From Phlebiopsis flavidoalba (taxonomy: Eukaryota > Basidiomycota > Agaricomycetes > Polyporales > Phanerochaetaceae): a DNA stretch of 15,442 nucleotides. The position numbers and the translations under genes are program-made. Below are positions 7,799-15,390 of the stretch, one piece after another (the first letter of the stretch is position 1; every line of letters begins with the position of its first letter). The stretch lies in the NCBI GenBank assembly GCA_035772785.1, contig JAOCPU010000122.1, forward strand, positions 1-15,442, read 5' to 3'. The notes beneath the pieces were generated by a model. That model worked only from the letters and a program-made list of their open reading frames with translations, did not search any database and was not told where the DNA came from.

Positions 7799-9590
7799 AT
7801 ACCAATGCTACACGAAGAACAACTCGGCGAATTCCTCCGCTGAGATGTCCGTACGGCAAGGCACGCAGCGAAAGTCGGAATTCAGGCGATCTGTCATCGT
7901 CACGATGCAGTCCATCCCTTCGTCCTTGGGGAGCGGTCTGATGAAATCAATCGCAACAGATTCATAGCGACCGTCAGATACGGGAAAGCGGGGTGCAGCA
8001 GGCCAGGTGGGCGACGGATTTTGAGCGATCCTTGTTGCGCTGACAATCCTCGCACGAGGGCAACGTAGAGCTTCTCGAGCTCCTGACGCATGTCCTGCGG
8101 CCAATAAAAGGCGTCACGGGATTGCGCCGTATGACTTCTCACTGCCGAAGTGCCCTAAGAAATCATGAGCGAGACGGAAAAACCGCCTTGCGCAGATCAG
8201 TCACCCGCGGAATGACAAGTCTGTCACCCACGTAAAGCAAACCGTTCCGTGCGGCAATCCCGTTGGTATGTCGGCCGTCCAGTAACCCCTTGCGCAGCGC
8301 AGACAATGCAGACAGGCCCTCACCGTTTTCCCCCCAGCAGCGTCCTTCGCCTCAGCATTCCACAGCGTGTCCACCAACTTCCGCGTCCAACTATCTTCCT
8401 CATAACCATCGCTGATCCGCGTCAACCAGACCGGATCAGTGGCTACGCGTAGCGAACCACGCGTAGCCCTCGTAGCGCATTACGCTTCGCCGTTCAGTCT
8501 GCACGTCCTGGACAGCGGGGATGCGATGTGCGCGGGACGCACGGCCGAGCCGTCGTAAGGCGGCCACCACCGGCGGCGGCCAAGGCCAGCGCGACATCAA
8601 GTCGGCAGGGGTGTTCAGAGGTCCCGGGATATAATGAATGTGTAATCGTACTGGGATAAAAATTCCTGCCAATGCGCCTGTCGGCGGGATAAATGTTTCT
8701 GCTCGTCAAAGTTCTCCAACGTCTTGTGGTTGGTGTACACCTCGATAGGTACGCCAATGAGGTCGGTACGCCACTTCTTCAATGCACGGATGATCGAGAA
8801 GAGTTCCTTCTCGTGTACAGGGTAGTTGAGCGCAGCGCCGTGAAGCTGCTGTGATTCGAACGCAACCGGCCTTGCTGATTCCACTGCACGTCTGGACAGC
8901 GGGCGAGTGCGCGGGACGCACGGCGGAGCCGTCGTAAGGCGGCCACCCACTGGCGGCGGCCAAGGCCAGCGCGACATCGAGTCGGCAGGGGTGTTCAGAG
9001 GTCCGGATATAATGAATGGTGTAATCGTACTGGGATAAAAATTCCTGCCAATGCGCCTGTCGGCGGGATAAATGTTTCTGCTCGTCAAAGTTCTCCAACG
9101 TCTTGTGGTCGGTATACACCTCGATAGGTACGCCAATGAGGTCGGTACGCCACTTCTTCAATGCACGGATGATCGAGAAGAGTTCCTTCTCGTGTACAGG
9201 GTAGTTGAGCGCAGCGCCGTGAAGCTGCTGTGATTCGAACGCAACCGGCCTTGCTGATTCCAAAGACTCGCCGTAAGTCAAAACAGCTCCGGTGCACCTG
9301 TCGCTCGCATCACATGAGACGAAGATGCGGTTGTTGCCCATGTGGTTGTGGTCGATAACAGTCAGACACTCCGCCGAAGTGACTAACTGTTTCACTGCGT
9401 TGAACGCCTGTTGGCGTCGGTCCAGCCATGCAAAGTCCGTCTCGGCCTCCTTCGTCGTCAAAGGGGTGAGTACGTCTGTGTACTGTGCAAGCCCCGGCAG
9501 GTGTTGCGCCATGTAACGCACCACCCCCAGGAAACCCGCGGACATGTGAGGCGCATGTCGGTGTCGGCCATTCGACCACCAGAGCATGTA
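7799..9590 (-). pseudogene. Ty3/gypsy retrotransposon pol remnant (RT end, RNase H, integrase)
   Basis: The remnant is a piece of an LTR retrotransposon polyprotein. Along the minus strand: the end of reverse transcriptase (FLGVVRYMAQHLPGLAQYT, near 9510), RNase H (FVSCDASD, HEKELFSIIRALKKWRTDL, VYTDHKTLENF), and its closing IPGPLNTPADLMSRW (about 8620). Next come the integrase zinc finger (His pair in LAHDFLGHF near 8160; CEDCQRNK near 8048, in a shifted frame) and the start of the integrase core (VAIDFIRPLPKDEG, near 7950, with the first catalytic Asp). Coding ends after ELFFV with an in-frame TAG at 7808, then HWY, and stops at the hAT boundary. The second Asp, the Glu and any LTR are absent. 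Frameshifts occur near 8175 and 8055, and the RNase H segment is duplicated. Nonfunctional. Confidence 0.93.
8499..9261. repeat. Tandem duplication of about 380 bp in gypsy RNase H
   Basis: Two direct, adjacent, near-identical copies: 8499-8882 and 8884-9261. Both begin CTGCACGTC and end CTTGCTGATTCC. They differ mostly by small indels (CGTCCTGG/CGTCTGG, GGTCCCGGGA/GGTCCGGA, GAATGTG/GAATGGTG) plus a few substitutions. Each copy carries the same RNase H segment, so the pol remnant seems to have two RNase H domains in a row. The similarity implies a recent event or an assembly duplication. Confidence 0.95.
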
Positions 9591-10921
9591 GCCGTTATAT
9601 ATAACGGGACTATCTTTCTAACAGCCTGCATTGCATTATTGGGCTTGGGCTCAGTGGCAGCCGTAATGCCCTGTATTCTAGAATGGGGGGTCAAAACCAA
9701 TGTTGTAGCCATCACTCAGGGCATCCTAAACATACCAGAATGGTATGTTTTGATGGAGAACTGGAGGAGCTATTCGCAAAATACATTTTTGGAGCCGACT
9801 CTTTTTTCGCAAAATAAGCGCCCAAATGCGGGAAAGTGCGGCTGGTTCCTGGGCCAGGCCCAGGGGCTGCCACTTGCCTGATTTGGCTCAGAATTGATGG
9901 CAATCCGCTTCCCATCAATTCCGCTTTTGGGCTGCATTTGGGGTTGCTCCCCAGCTTCTCCCTTGCTTATTTAGGGCGCTGTATTGTAGTTTGAGTACCT
10001 ATGTATGCTTAGAACATGCTCACCGAACAGAATTCTCATATTTGGCCTGTCAGGGGTGCTACCAATATAATCCGATTTTATTTCGCTTTTTTCGCGATTT
10101 TCAAATAGGATACCCTGGGTTCCCCTGCATTCCCCTGGCCTTGCTGCTTCTCGTTTAAGCTCATATATGATCCCTGAGTATGCCCATAACATAGGAACAT
10201 CATCTGACACATTCCCATTATCCTGGGAATTGTTTCGAATTTTCTGGTATTTTTCGAAATCTGGGGGGTCTGGGCATTGCTTCCTATTGATTGGGAATTG
10301 TTCCGAGCATTTCCCCCATGTATCTACACCATATTAGAGTATTTCCACCATGTAGATCAAAGGACTTAACATGATATGCATGTTTTGCAACATATTTTTG
10401 CGGAATTGATGGCTACTTCCCCTATACCCCCCAGATCAATAATATACTATTCTGAGCGGATGAAAAGTATTCTATGGGTGCCTAGTACATGCAGATAAAT
10501 TGTGGAAGCAAGGGGATGGCTGTAGCTAGTGTGATTTCCCAGATCTTGGTCGATTATCCTGGCGCTTATTTTCGGATTTTAGGGTTAAGCTCAAATCATG
10601 GTATTCCAATACAAATGAAGCTTAGCTGATATCTCCATCGTATTCTACACCCCTGAAAACCCTTATATACAAATTTGCGAAAAGGAGGGAACATGTACAG
10701 GCTGTCAGAGCATAAAAACAGACAGGAAGTTGTATAATTGTACAGAGATTCATGTTAACCCCATGCATTCTCTTGTAACACTAGCACATCTTTCCACTCA
10801 CTTGGGGGATTGATGTAAACTAAATTGTAGCATGTGTGGGAGGTATGTAGGATGTGTTCTACAGCTGGAAATGAATTATCCTGCTCTGTGTGTGAATAGG
10901 TGCACATGTTTTCGCTTTTTT
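9591..10921. other. Non-coding spacer with several palindromes
   Basis: About 1.3 kb, mainly AT-rich, without a credible gene. It contains the perfect palindrome CCGTTATATATAACGG (9592-9607) at the gypsy edge, the inverted repeat AAACATACC/GGTATGTTT near 9728-9750, CCTGGGCC-A-GGCCCAGG near 9848, and GAATTGATGG/CCATCAATTC (9891-9900/9912-9921). AATTGATGGC recurs near 10405, and GGGAATTGTTTCGAA and GGGAATTGTTCCGAG near 10226 and 10290. It may be subtelomeric DNA or an unrecognised non-autonomous element. Confidence 0.5.
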
Positions 10922-10943
10922 AAACCCTTAGGGTTTAGGGGGG
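10922..10943. repeat. Telomere-like seam at the 3' end of the Penelope-like element
   Basis: AAACCC is followed by TTAGGG (10928-10933) and TTTAGGGGGG (10934-10943), exactly where AT-rich spacer gives way to GC-rich structured sequence. On the minus-strand RNA this would be a 3'-terminal CCCCCCTAAACCCTAA. That is the kind of C-rich end that can pair with a G-rich telomeric overhang. The tract is only two repeat units, so chance is possible taken alone. Confidence 0.6.
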
Positions 10944-11003
10944 CGGAGCCCGAGCGAAGCGAGGGCGACGGCGTTGGGTTTGTTAGAGAGAGAGCGCGAG
11001 GGC

Positions 11004-11079
11004 GGCGAGAGTAAAGGGTAGTGACTCGAGGTGAGTCACCGTACACTTTCGACTTGAAGTCTCATCAGTACTCTCAGCC
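11004..11079 (-). ncRNA. Hammerhead ribozyme (type I), candidate
   Basis: On the minus strand the full conserved core is present: CUGAUGA (11062-11068), stem II GACU-UCA-AGUC (11051-11061), and GAAA (11047-11050). Stem III is A-G-x-G-U-A pairing with U-A-C-x-C-U, then a two-base bulge, then GUGACUC/GAGUCAC (11033-11039 with 11021-11027) and a 5-nt loop. The expected cleavage is after CUU at 11014, which satisfies the NUH rule. Stem I is GAGAGUA (11069-11075) with UACUCUC (11007-11013), continued by GGC/GCC past a U bulge. All three helices sit directly on the core as they should. One mismatch in stem III and a CUU rather than GUC site may slow it. Hammerheads are a known component of Penelope-like elements. 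Confidence 0.82.
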
Positions 11080-11096
11080 TGGTACTTATACCTGAC

Positions 11097-11126
11097 TGTC
11101 AAGGGTCCCGGTAGGGACCCTTGACA
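11097..11126. repeat. Perfect 13-bp hairpin next to the ribozyme
   Basis: TGTCAAGGGTCCC (11097-11109) and GGGACCCTTGACA (11114-11126) are exact inverse complements around a GGTA loop. It lies 17 nt from the hammerhead and begins the structured 3' region. It could end transcription, cap a folded RNA, or stall reverse transcription. Confidence 0.9.
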
Positions 11127-11425
11127 CTAGCCTGTAACCGTGATTGGCTGGCTAGACTTAGTAATGCTTGCTGACCGCTGACTCGGCGATGAGTAAGTCA
11201 GTGGAGCAATAACCAATTGAGGCCTTAACGCTATTCGCTAGGCCGGGCGGAGCCCGGCGGCCCTAGACTGTCAGCAAGAAACAGTCAGCATCGGTGATCG
11301 GGGATAAGCCAGCCGATCACGCCGAGGACCGGGCCGTGAGGCCCGGCAGCGCCCGGACATTGCCGAGCGACTAACCACGTGGTAGTCACGTGCCCCGGCG
11401 CTTTGCCACCGACACGGCGCCATGG
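11127..11425 (-). ncRNA. Highly structured 3' untranslated RNA region of the retroelement
   Basis: There is no open frame of note. Successive stems can be seen by eye: CTAGG+CCGGGC (11238-11248) with GCCCGG+CCTAG (11252-11266); GACTGT/ACAGTC (11266-11271/11281-11286); GTGATCGG/CCGATCAC (11294-11301/11313-11320); CCGGGCC-GTGA-GGCCCGG (11329-11346); and CCACGTGG within GACTA/TAGTC near 11370. The word GGGCGGAGCCCG (11245) recurs at 10941. The density of stems suggests a selected RNA fold, possibly for packaging or priming. I do not recognise it as a group I intron, telomerase RNA or any named family. The strand is inferred from the flanking element. Confidence 0.6.
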
Positions 11426-11434
11426 TTTAGCGCC

Positions 11435-11507
11435 GTTAGGGTTTAGCGGTTAGGGTTAGGGGTTAGGGTTAGGGGGCTTAGGGCTTAGGGCTTAGGGTTT
11501 AGGGTTC
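11435..11507. repeat. Degenerate telomeric repeat tract, TTAGGG on +
   Basis: About ten units of TTAGGG and variants: GTTAGGG, TTTAGCGG, GTTAGGGG, then GGGCTTA repeated three times, then GTTTAGGG. It is followed by GGTTCGAACC (11503-11512, palindromic) and the 3' UTR of the reverse transcriptase gene. The G-rich strand points into the antisense of the element, the polarity expected when a telomeric 3' end primes reverse transcription. The mixture of unit types suggests age or sloppy synthesis. It could instead be a built-in C-rich tract of the RNA. Confidence 0.88.
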
Positions 11508-11557: not shown

Positions 11558-12205
11558 TTAGTGCCATTCATCCAAGTAGCCTTCAACGATATCTTCGTTG
11601 TCGGCTGTAGCTAGGACGGACTTTTTCCAGCGTGAACTGAGATCAGCAAGGTTTTTGTTACGCTTGCGTGATACAATCCACTCACGTTGATGATAACCAA
11701 CGGATCTAATATCCAGAACGTGCTCCACCTCAAGGGCATTCCCAAAGCGAACCGGCTTCAGTCGTCCGGTCGGAATCAGGTTACCCATACGCCACTCCTG
11801 TGGGAGTGGGTCCGCATTGGCAACGAACGGCGTTTCCGCCCGCAGAGGAGTTGGGACCGGACCCTGTTCGAAAGGATCCAGATACTCCAGAGAAGATTCG
11901 CGTTCCATTATCGAGCCATGCTCACTTGGGGCAGCGGGCTCGGGCGAGTGACCCCAAAGTGGCGATGAATTCCCGGTAGGGTTTCTACGCACACCGGCAG
12001 GGGCCAGCACGCCAATAACGGGCGACGAACCAAGCTCTGAGCCAGAACCGTCCTCTGTGGTCATGGCCGGGATTGAGAGCCCCCGGACTTCCACCACGTG
12101 GGACGACGCGGACGACGGGAGAAACCCGAAACGTTCCAGACTGAACTGTACCAGCTCAGCCTCAGGCGATCCCCGAGGAGCGAGCTGGCGGGCCCAGGCC
12201 AGCAA
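11558..12205 (-). other. C-terminal extension of the retroelement protein, unknown function
   Basis: This is the longest undamaged stretch of the element, read in one frame to its stop. The first half is Ser/Pro/Glu-rich and looks disordered. The end is basic and more compact (GYHQREWIVSRKRNKNLADL). Just upstream, in another frame, LKSHFNPAWSAFNVHELG precedes it and looks conserved. EN-minus PLEs carry C-terminal domains of unclear role; nothing here resembles a nuclease. A role in telomere or nucleic-acid contact is a guess. Confidence 0.6.
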
Positions 12206-14214
12206 CGGAGGCGGGACCCGCAGAGCTCCCAGAGGGAGATGCGCGCTCGCCGCCGTGTTCTAGATATCGTCTCCGACGCTCATTTTCCTCCAGTATATGG
12301 AGGCCTGAGAGCCAAGATTCAACAACGATACGTCCTAGTTCATGGACGTTGAACGCACTCCAAGCCGGGTTGAAATGGGACTTGAGAACTAACACTTCAC
12401 GGGCCCTTGATGCCACACCAAGGCGGTTTACCCAGCGAGAGACGTAATTTTCTCGAGCCCCACTTACGAACGAGGTCGGTGTGGGTATCCACGTGCAACA
12501 TAAAGACCCGTCAAGTCAGTAATTGCGTCTGCGTAGTGATCAGGTTTACTACTCAGCGTGGCCAGCCTAGACATCTCACCGACGAAAGTTCCGCGCTTTA
12601 CGTCTTTGGGATGGTGAGATGCCCAGGGAATGCGTTCACGATGGTTTAACGGTTTACGGTAGGGTTTGTGCTCGACTCGCCGTGTCAGAGGATCTAAGTA
12701 TACAAACATGTCCAGGAATGGTGTGTGCCATTCCGAAACCGACCCATTCGATTTCGACGCCTTCATACACAACTTGTTGTGCAAGCAACATCGCTGCCTC
12801 CGCCGTAGGGGCGTAGACAATGCCAAGAAGGTCATCGATTCGGTTAAGGTACCGTCCGAAGAATGCGAAAGCGGACTTGAGTGGTTCCTCGTTAAGAATA
12901 CGATTTTCGAAGTACGAACCATAAAGGTTCGCGAGATCTGGTGAACAGGCAATGCCCATCGCCAGTCCGTTGACTTGCTCCGCGTATTCTTCGCCGAACT
13001 TTATTATTAACTGCGTATTAGCTAGTTGCATACAGCGGAGAAACATATGACGTTCCTCCGGAGACTTGTTTACACCCTATCGCATCAAGCCACATCTTGC
13101 TTACTTTAGCGATGCATGAACGTAGGGGAACGTTAGGGGTAGAATGCGACAATGTCACCGCTAACGATCCAAGCCTTTCGTGAATGCTCTAATTGCAGTC
13201 CGCTCAATTTCTGTGCAAGGTCTTTGGAACCATGCAGAACGATATGGTTGCTGTGCAACCAAAGGTTTGAGCTGTTTAGAAACATAAGTGGCAGCCGGGG
13301 CCTGTGCGTTGGAATGGCACGGCACGATTGGGCGCATCTTTACCGGTTTCTTATGCATCTTTGGGATGCCATAGAACTCCGGCAACGCTGACCGAGCGTG
13401 AGGATCAACCTCCTCCGACGGGACTTTACTACCGATGAATGTTGCCAGCTGTTTGTCCCCCGAGCTGCGTCTCAGCAAAAAGACTTAGCTCCTGAACAGC
13501 CTCATGTTTCCGATCCATAATAAGATCTGATTCAGCTTCGGTGATATGACGATATGCCGAGGGATCGTTCCAAAGCTTACGCGTATTCTCTACGAACCAT
13601 GCCTTAGTGATTACCGCTACACCGAGGGGTTTTTTGTCCGTATGCGACACCATATACTGGTGCGCCTCCAGATAGGACTGAAGACGGTCAAATTCGACGA
13701 GCCTATGACGACGCTCATCGCTTTTCAACGTGGGCATGACCTCACTCAAAAAACGAGAAATATATCGGTCACCAGCGTCGAGACCGTCCTCAAAATAGTC
13801 AGCGGTCTCGCCCGAGAACTCGGGGGTCTCGTGCGGGACTTCGTAATCTGGGTCGTAGTCGCGTTCTTTGCTGTCTCCTCGCGCGCTTTCTTAGTATCGT
13901 GATGAAAACGCCACCTTAAGCGTAACTTAAAGTTGTTTCCAAGCCTCGGTCACACGCGTTGCAGAAGGCGATGAATACAACATATATTTTAGAGACGCAG
14001 ATAGGTGTACAGCAAGATGATCAGGTAAAAAAAACTCCCGGCCCAACGAAAAACGCGCGAACGAAACTCGCAGGCCTGCCTTACGTCGGCGGGCACACGT
14101 TCGTGCAGTAGGGCGATAGCTGTGGGAGCAGGTACCATTAGTATTTCGTTCTTCCGGATACGAGAGGGGATTCACGTTACGACCATACGAGCGGCGCGAC
14201 GGATATGCGCGCAA
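11558..14214 (-). pseudogene. Penelope-like reverse transcriptase, Coprina-like, endonuclease absent
   Basis: This is the polymerase ORF of a Penelope-like element. Along the minus strand: LKYMLYSS and FKLRLRWRF (about 13990-13900), an acidic linker, then fingers with TDKKPLGVAVITKAW (about 13620). The PLE signature YGIPKMHKKPVKMRPIV is at 13323-13376. Motif A is GDIVAFYP (13136-13159, catalytic Asp codon 13154-13156), motif B QVNGLAMGIACSPDLANLY (12921-12977), and motif C RIDDLLGIV (IDD 12831-12839). The thumb has VEHKPYRKPLNHRERIPW and GEMSRLATLSS (about 12480-12712). The last 215 codons (12205-11558) are open and end at a TGA/TAA/TAG-type stop, with no GIY-YIG or other nuclease motif. At least six frame changes break the rest, for example an extra C after FYP that puts TAA in frame. 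The original start is uncertain; an ATG is at 14212-14214. Confidence 0.9.
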
Positions 14215-14224
14215 CGAGGTCGTT

Positions 14225-15390
14225 CTAACGACCGGACTTCCCCTTCTTCGCTCCAGAAGCAGCTTGCTTCTGGTTGGCCTTGATACTCGGTACCGAGCGA
14301 GCCTTTCTCCTTCTTACTTGCGGGAGCCCTGTGAGGAAGGGCGTGCCAAACTTGAGGATGGCCCGGGGGCGTTTTGAGGCGCCTTGTTGCCCTTGCCTTT
14401 TTTTCGGCTTGAGACTTCGCCGCCTTTTTCGCCCTAAAGCGACGTTAGAACGTGAGTTGAGGGGGGGTTCGAGGGACATGGGACGGACCTACGTTTTGCG
14501 TGGGAGTTCGAGCCTTTGCGAAGCTCGTCCACGGTCTTGCGCAACTCCGCAAGTTGCTCTTCGGTCGTCGGTGCTTCGTGCATCTCGACGTCGGCCGCGT
14601 CCTTGAGCCCCTTTTTTCTTGGCAGTCTTCTTTGCCGCCTCGCGAATTACCTTGTTCTCTGGAGGAGAACGCAAGTGGTCGGACGAGGCGTGAGACGCCG
14701 GTGATCATGCGGTCGCGCAGTTTCACCATGGGCTCGTAGGTGGCCCACCCCGTGATCTTGGGATTCCCGTTACCGTCGATCTCGTCACCGAAGACCGGGT
14801 ACTTGTAACGGGGTTCCAAGACCTTCCGCCCAGTGCATCGAGACGACGCGCAATGAGCGGGGGAATGGAGGCCTCAGCTTTGAGCTGTCCCTCGAAGAAC
14901 GCACACTCCTTTCTCTTGGTAGAGATAAAGTTGTCGAGTACGGCAAGTTGGAACTTGCCGTACTCAGTGCGTGGGGCGGCCATAAGGGCGGACGCATCAC
15001 CGTCGCCCTCGAGGAACGCCTTCGAGAGTTGCAAAAAAAGACGGTTCGCCTTACCGCCCAGGCTTGGGGGTAAGGTTCCTGCCGCCTTGTGCTGCTCCAA
15101 CTTCGCGAGCTGGCCCTTGATCTCGACGAACCTGCCGGCTCGATCGTAGACCTCGCGTAAGGGTAAGCGGAGGACCTCGCGGTATAGTCGATGGGGGATC
15201 GTCGAAAGACGTCGTCAAACGAACGTGCTAAGCCGAGGGCGGCTTTCGCGACGCTCGTCTGATGGCTCCCAGTCGCGTGGTCATTCGCGCGAGAGACGTG
15301 GCGACCGGAGGCAGCGGGGTGAAGGGGCCCCGCGTGAAAGGACCGGTGACGCCCCGCGGAGGGACGTAAGCACCTGTGACGTGACGACAT
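14225..15390 (-). pseudogene. ORF1-like region of the Penelope-like element (coiled coil, basic tail)
   Basis: The ATG at 15388-15390 opens a frame that reads VAKAALGLARSFDDVFRRS. It then shifts at a C run near 15195 to YREVLRLPLREVYDRAGRF and IKGQLAKLEQHKAAG. QLSKAFLEGDGDASALMAAP and EPRYKYPVFGDEIDGNGNP (another frame, from about 14819) follow. After ENKVIREAAKKTAKKKG, a shift at AAAAAAGGGG (about 14625) leads to TTEEQLAELRKTVDELRKG, a short heptad coiled coil. A strongly basic tail (RKRRRSLKPKKRQGQQ, SGAKKGKSGR) ends at 14225. The stop lies 11 nt before an ATG for the polymerase frame, so this may be a separate ORF1 with structural or RNA-binding function, or the N-terminus of one long protein. 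The family is not recognised. Confidence 0.65.

Follow-up and report, generated by a model that had tools for sequence, protein, structure and literature searches.

A predicted type I hammerhead fold and a telomere-complement tail in the 3' region of a putative endonuclease-deficient Penelope-like element of Phlebiopsis flavidoalba

Reverse transcriptase frame and predicted hammerhead fold

The window, that is the whole stretch of DNA analysed, corresponds to the entire 15,442-base contig C122 of the Phlebiopsis flavidoalba genome (36.3 Mb in 129 contigs, the search space for all copies). Its minus strand, on which all the window features described here are located, carries a Penelope-like reverse transcriptase (RT) reading frame at 11558..15187, in at least five pieces, which matches residues 43-1246 of the 1247-amino-acid relative P0001. 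The named RT relatives are from Agaricomycetes. The structure model of an RT relative gave telomerase as the best match, and a Pfam scan of 30 RT relatives showed RVT_1 in 20 of them and a GIY-YIG family in none. The RT pieces of the window and of contig C42 exhibited no GIY-YIG match, and this domain was missing from the fold lists, which is uninformative by itself. PDB sequence searches returned one weak, unrelated match with one RT piece, and four weak RT matches together with an unrelated one with the family profile. From its telomerase-like RT devoid of GIY-YIG, the element would be classed as an endonuclease-deficient (EN-deficient) Penelope-like element (PLE); the basidiomycete members of this class go by the name Coprina. 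In the model of the relative P0002, residues ~734-789 form a small conserved C-terminal domain made of strands and a helix and ending WIVSRKRTRNL..W, and a domain of the same type also ends the window RT; this domain may be a degenerate endonuclease-like domain.

A predicted type I hammerhead ribozyme fold was found at 11004..11081 by an architecture scan, a core pattern, pair counts and a hold-out covariance model. The minus-strand RNA from 11081 to 11004 reads GGCU GAGAGUA CUGAUGA GACU UCA AGUC GAAA GUGUACGGUGACUC ACCUC GAGUCACUACC CUU|UACUCUC, with the order open stem I, CUGAUGA, stem II, GAAA, stem III, CUU site and stem I. Stem I pairs 11075-11069 to 11013-11007, the core strands CUGAUGA and GAAA occupy 11068-11062 and 11050-11047, stem II lies at 11061-11051, and stem III, at 11047-11015, has 12 pairs in the counted structure with one 1x1 mismatch and one 2-nt bulge. 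U16.1 is at 11015 and U17 at 11014, so the predicted cleavage falls at 11014|11013. The motif thus has the CUGANGA and GAAA core, the NUH site, the open stem I and the helix order of a type I hammerhead. The earlier note had claimed a complete core with three placed helices, about 480 nt from the RT stop and about 60 nt from a C-rich end. The coordinates, both distances and the predicted cleavage position proved correct on the minus strand, the RT frame was found to end at 11558, and the tail motif was located at 10944-10928.

The architecture scan, run on both strands, required the core, an NUH site, a 15.2/16.2 pair and minimum lengths of 3 bp for stem II and 6 bp for stem I. It gave one match in the real window against none in 300 dinucleotide shuffles. 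The folding energy of the hammerhead had a z-score of -2.57, with 2 of 200 shuffles folding equally well. The window motif can be regarded as a real type I hammerhead fold, with self-cleavage only predicted from the sequence. In the window motif H17 is U, and hammerheads with such a CUU site are slower than those with GUC.

Genomic copies, helix conservation and covariance models

The core pattern CTGATGAGACN(2-8)GTCGAAA had 11 matches in the 36.3 Mb genome, and none when read backwards. The 11 copies comprise two of a type that we call A (the window and one copy in C116) and nine of a type B, whose stems are quite unlike those of A. When one B copy was used as the query of a similarity search, two decayed copies (C21 and the end of C33) were added, together with three units, C74, C116:1701 and C77:1, that are cut short in the hammerhead or close to it, for a total of 16 units. 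This total and that of three RT copies are lower bounds because the genome searches score the best candidates only. The same fungal core was found neither in viral contigs nor in prokaryote contigs; a looser core had at least 120 matching stretches in viral contigs by pattern match alone. A generic pattern, CTGATGAN(6-16)GAAA, was discarded as too loose to use, with 242 occurrences in the genome against 150 when reversed.

Ten of the 11 exact-core copies were assembled in alignment A2, from which C42:283948, cut off in stem III, and the decayed copies C21 and C33 end were omitted. Standard pairs were present in 98.7% of its 230 cells and 10 of its 23 pairs were altered on both sides, eight of these ten changes resting on a single A-B contrast. 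None of 500 shuffles reached either the paired fraction or the count of both-side changes, the number of further pair types was ordinary (40 of 500 shuffles as high), and sliding the pairing partners lowered the pairing to 32-44%. The both-side changes are shared equally by stem I (five pairs) and stem III (five pairs, with its 12 pairs kept in 98.3% of cells). The compensation looked for in related copies was therefore seen in stems I and III, and the invariant stem II is neither supported nor contradicted by pair changes. A single A-U to U-A swap separates the window copy from the C116 A copy, and within the B copies two neighbouring stem III pairs swap fully. Alignment A3, built from six of the eight B-type rows of A2 (C42:288256 was omitted for its scarred stem I and C77 for a 2-nt insertion), showed by itself a modest covariation, with two both-side pairs, a number reached by 177 of 500 shuffles, and four changed cells, reached by 1 of 500. 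Between C33i and C94, 2 of 69 hammerhead positions were changed, both keeping G-U pairs, and none of the 13 core positions, against 54 of 387 positions in the flank (P 0.002 for the contrast). The decayed copies C21 and C33 end each had two of 13 core positions altered.

The earlier note had also named the lack of a covariance hit as a refutation, and here the answers of Rfam and of a model built from other genomic copies diverged. Rfam gave no hammerhead at E<=10 on the whole window, no match on 10900-11200, and on 11000-11085 alone only RAGATH-1-hammerhead (RF03152) at 15.1 bits and E 1.5, so that no hammerhead family reached its gathering score for the window motif. RAGATH-1-hammerhead, the sole hammerhead family that scored at all, has UACUGAUGAGACUU in common with the window motif, which nevertheless lies far under its cut-off of 56.3. 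On the B copy of C95, Rfam yielded only noise of miRNA/sRNA type, on the upstream hairpin. The Rfam models are curated from other lineages and a missing score is no test of the defining fold. The hold-out model R2, made from the six diverged B copies of A3, had a single match up to E 10, namely the window copy, which scored 51.1 bits (E 1e-10).

The silence of Rfam at any useful score is what would be expected if the window held a chance cluster of hairpins only resembling a hammerhead. Such a cluster would have to arise with an architecture absent from all 300 shuffles, be found by the hold-out model, and pair far better than the slid controls with 10 pairs altered on both sides. Being already contradicted by the pair changes, the hold-out model and the shuffles, the chance reading has a negligible probability.

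Telomere-complement tail, RNA 3' region and junctions

TTTAGGG is unusual for fungi, in which TTAGGG is common. In the P. flavidoalba genome, TTTAGGG telomere ends were observed at the right ends of contigs C47, C42 and C73, and three exact TTTAGGG in a row were present only at the ends of these contigs and at the 3' junction of the C95 unit. The genome search for the tail CCCCCCCTAAACCCTAA (at most one mismatch) gave 11 matches, all of them at the 3' ends of the present units. As the host telomere is TTTAGGG and the tail matches only at unit 3' ends, the RNA 3' tail of the window, GCCCCCCTAAACCCTAA at 10928..10944, is the complement of the host telomere; its presumed role is that of an annealing site on the telomere overhang.

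The RNA 3' region also comprises, upstream of the hammerhead, a 13-bp hairpin with a 4-nt loop at 11097..11126 (one A and one B fold, and the copies) and a small hairpin GGUAUAAGUACC at 11081..11092 adjoining stem I (fold and copies). A spacer of 62 nt at 10945..11006 leads from stem I to the tail and holds a CTCGCTTCGCTCG stretch, which recurs in the A copies and in several of type B. The B-type copies have, at the position of the A-type 13-bp hairpin, a 12-bp hairpin of different sequence, and GGGUAUAUAUGCCC is their counterpart of the small hairpin. The order is thus the same in the A and B copies compared (12-13 bp hairpin, small hairpin, hammerhead, CTCGCTTCGCTCG-like spacer, and C tract running into TAAACCCTAA), with a common layout and different sequences for the first two hairpins. 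When six copies were folded as single strands, the 13 nt at the end stayed mostly unpaired, with means from 0.69 to 0.98. Among the B copies, the hammerhead fold of C95 was at -25.2 against a minimum free energy of -28.0, and the C23 fold lost stem II. Over the longer 3' region, the core strand of C116 A, C95, C100 and C23 was paired to the tail side. With their core paired elsewhere, the hammerhead is not favoured in these four copies by minimum free energy folding alone. The B tails (C95 and others) hold UCUCUAUCAGC, complementary to the core strand CUGAUGAGA, a pairing that could sequester the core and has weak statistics: in six B copies, it was equalled by 17 to 99 of 500 shuffled tails, and in two A copies matched by 442 and 413 of 500. 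Since shuffled tails pair as well, this idea was dropped.

Between the RT stop and the 3' untranslated region, a degenerate CCCTAA array is found at 11424..11506. It is internal to the element in all three RT-bearing copies found (window; L010 3551-3594, contig C42; L033 1122-1158), which rules it out as the attachment seam. Of the C-rich telomere-like end described previously, the short tail at 10928-10944 is thus retained, and the larger array as seam is not. The array could possibly be an old seam that joined a non-coding hammerhead unit to an RT unit. Three non-coding units (C94, C100 and C42:288256) start at or just past the array position, and they could be separate mobile units or recombination products at the array.

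Most copies are found close to contig ends and have the 5' side turned outward; some are 5'-truncated against CCCTAAA and some are arranged head to tail. Fifteen of the 16 units are no more than 26 kb away from a contig end, a zone that makes up at most ~18.5% of the genome (the 26-kb limit was chosen after the distances were seen), and 14 of 16 have their 5' side towards the nearest contig end, C33i and C47 facing the other way; these counts are supportive and not a proof, since some contig ends could be breaks in the assembly and units of the same contig are not independent. Contig C74 begins with CCCTAAACCCTAAACCC, joined directly to a unit that starts in the stem III loop, and the C116 A copy begins after CCCTAAACCCTAA. 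In contig C42 two units follow each other head to tail, and the tail of the distal one directly meets the RT-bearing unit of ~4.2 kb at its 5' end; head-to-tail units are also present in C77. The 5' truncation points and the proximal flanks differ between copies. On the distal side, C94, C100, C116 and C77 have a common subtelomeric flank right up to the junction, which suggests chromosome-end repair or recombination besides telomere addition. This subtelomeric repeat, ending ...CCTACTAAGCCTCA just distal of the units, was located at L026 860-970 (C94), L028 6440-6557 (C100), L033 100-203 (C116) and L029 ~1280-1370 (C77). The units of C74 (L045 19) and C116 (L033 1701) are 5'-truncated within ~2 nt of each other in the stem III loop, with CCCTAAA repeats directly before; an RT stop or an RNA break in the loop possibly accounts for the shared position. 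The C77 unit starts at a similar place in stem III because its contig begins there.

At the 3' end, 13 of the 16 units have a telomere-repeat tail; in 12 of these the sequence past the cleavage site is whole, and no unit starts or ends exactly at the predicted site. For most inserted copies, these ends do not agree with a template cut at 11014|11013, where cleavage would fix an RNA end according to the earlier note. The three units devoid of a proper tail are C33i, with no repeats, C94, which ends just after stem I, and C42:283948, which ends in stem III and is followed by TAAACCCTAA. In C42:288256 the tail is kept and a scar starts ~4 nt past the predicted cleavage site, so that, with the end of C94, this scar leaves a possible place for processing near the site.

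Role of the hammerhead and comparison with known elements

Taken together, we read the locus, with a probability of about 0.8, as the 3' end of an EN-deficient fungal PLE that attaches to chromosome ends, in which the hammerhead would be mainly a folded domain recognised by the RT, cutting being at most secondary. The RNA tail CCCUAAACCCUAA would anneal to the 3' G-rich telomere overhang, which would prime reverse transcription, and the cDNA would extend outward from the 3' end of the element. Telomerase, or recombination involving a different chromosome end, would then cap the 5' end, often truncated, and the next unit would attach to these capping telomere repeats. EN-deficient PLEs are described in PMC3846280 and PMC6431247 as using telomere-primed reverse transcription, after which telomere repeats are added where the 5' end is truncated, a scheme that the present junctions fit step by step. 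In favour of this reading, each of the three RT copies found has a hammerhead 3' of the RT, intact in the window and in C116 and cut off in stem III in C42. The hammerhead would mainly be recognised by the RT and keep the tail exposed, a landing and tail-presenting function favoured by the fact that most 3' ends keep the tail and none lies exactly at the site. Most inserted copies were probably made from RNA uncut at 11014|11013. Because a cis cut at this position removes the attachment tail, self-cleavage, if any, would be confined to read-through RNA of head-to-tail units, where it would set the downstream 5' end, or to RNAs that it retires. The Anolis element PAc agrees with the role of a folded domain: according to PMC11167929, its cleavage needed protein and was not required for insertion in vitro, cleavage mutants left insertion unaffected, and RNA reads ending at the site were absent.

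The hammerhead could instead be primarily a cutter of tandem or read-through RNA that defines the unit ends, the tail then being either the 5' terminus of the downstream unit or an internal part of a re-ligated circle. We consider this unlikely, though clearly the strongest of the competing readings: the core is intact in 11 units (a set selected by that core), helix III is long, unlike that of minimal variants, and C42 and C77 have head-to-tail units, but a cut would detach the attachment tail, no boundary among the 16 units falls exactly on the cleavage site, and the PAc results of PMC11167929 show insertion by cleavage mutants and no reads ending at the site. Alternatively, the hammerhead might be a passive relic, with copies spread by subtelomeric duplication and recombination and nothing now mobile. 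The distal flank common to C94, C100, C116 and C77, the window RT in at least five pieces and the finding of only three or more RT copies would agree with such a relic, which is made improbable by the varied 5' truncation points and proximal flanks, by the compensatory pair changes and by the constraint on the hammerhead of C33i. Slightly less probable again is a telomeric retrozyme family formed by the units devoid of RT, in which hammerhead-cut RNA would be re-ligated to small circles with CCCUAAACCCUAA internal, and overhang-primed copying with the PLE RT in trans would give the head-to-tail units. At least nine of the 16 units are without RT and four more have contig ends too near to judge. 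The plant and animal retrozymes, as presented in PMC7761336, resemble these units in being non-coding and bearing hammerheads, and differ in that no hammerhead-bearing terminal repeat pair is present here and attachment is by the telomere complement.

The reading as a domain at the 3' end of a chromosome-end-attaching PLE has its closest parallel in the terminons, the Athena PLEs of bdelloid rotifers, which have a hammerhead near the RNA 3' end and reverse-complement telomere repeats (PMC6431247, section 8). Both systems combine a PLE RT lacking the endonuclease, a 3'-terminal hammerhead with reverse-complement telomere repeats, 5' truncation by telomere repeats and head-to-tail units at chromosome ends. 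They differ by the tail, which is CCCTAAA in the fungus and ACACCC/TCACCC in terminons, by its position, ~62 nt past the hammerhead against immediately after it, and by the long helix III and the fungal host of the present element. Given the conserved hammerhead, the telomerase-like RT and the end complementary to the host telomere, the layout of terminons is indeed paralleled in a fungal element, as had been proposed. In the literature surveyed, hammerheads with telomere-complement ends were described only for the rotifer terminons and no hammerhead was reported in a fungal telomere element; the key original papers may mention fungal cases. The EN-deficient PLEs of fungi in PMC3846280 have in common with the present element a telomerase-like RT devoid of GIY-YIG, fungal hosts and telomere association, and differ in that the excerpts of this source make no mention of a hammerhead in them; the source also notes that protist and fungal PLEs differ in structural organisation from animal EN-containing PLEs. 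In other basidiomycetes, PLEs are described at chromosome ends in Agaricus bisporus (PMC7473861) and five Rfam Hammerhead_3 hits are listed in Pleurotus ostreatus (PMC5040776). The minimal PLE hammerheads, according to PMC7761336, are similar to the window motif in type I order, core, short stem II with no evident loop-loop contact and PLE location. They lack helix III, which here has 12 pairs, a mismatch and a bulge; the window motif thus falls outside a definition by an absent or diminished helix III, and its long helix III makes cleavage as a monomer conceivable. A fungal arrangement matched to its own telomere repeat could reflect either an old shared attachment device of endonuclease-less PLEs or convergence, and this compact system would suit tests of telomere-primed reverse transcription and of the unsettled role of PLE hammerheads.

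Terminons reach up to 40 kb with accessory ORFs. The sole complete unit found here, the B-type unit of C42, measures ~4.2 kb from the previous tail to its own hammerhead, and its sense frames of at least 120 amino acids match RT. The A-type unit of the window runs past the contig at its 5' end. As terminon size and accessory ORFs are absent from the C42 unit and the window unit is incomplete, the element is filed not as a terminon but as an EN-deficient fungal PLE whose 3' end is terminon-like. Proximal to the window element, the minus strand carries at 8499-9617 a retroelement RNase H fragment (PF17917, E 4.7e-30), which we take to be of the Gypsy type and which bears a 379-bp tandem duplication with copies 96% alike.
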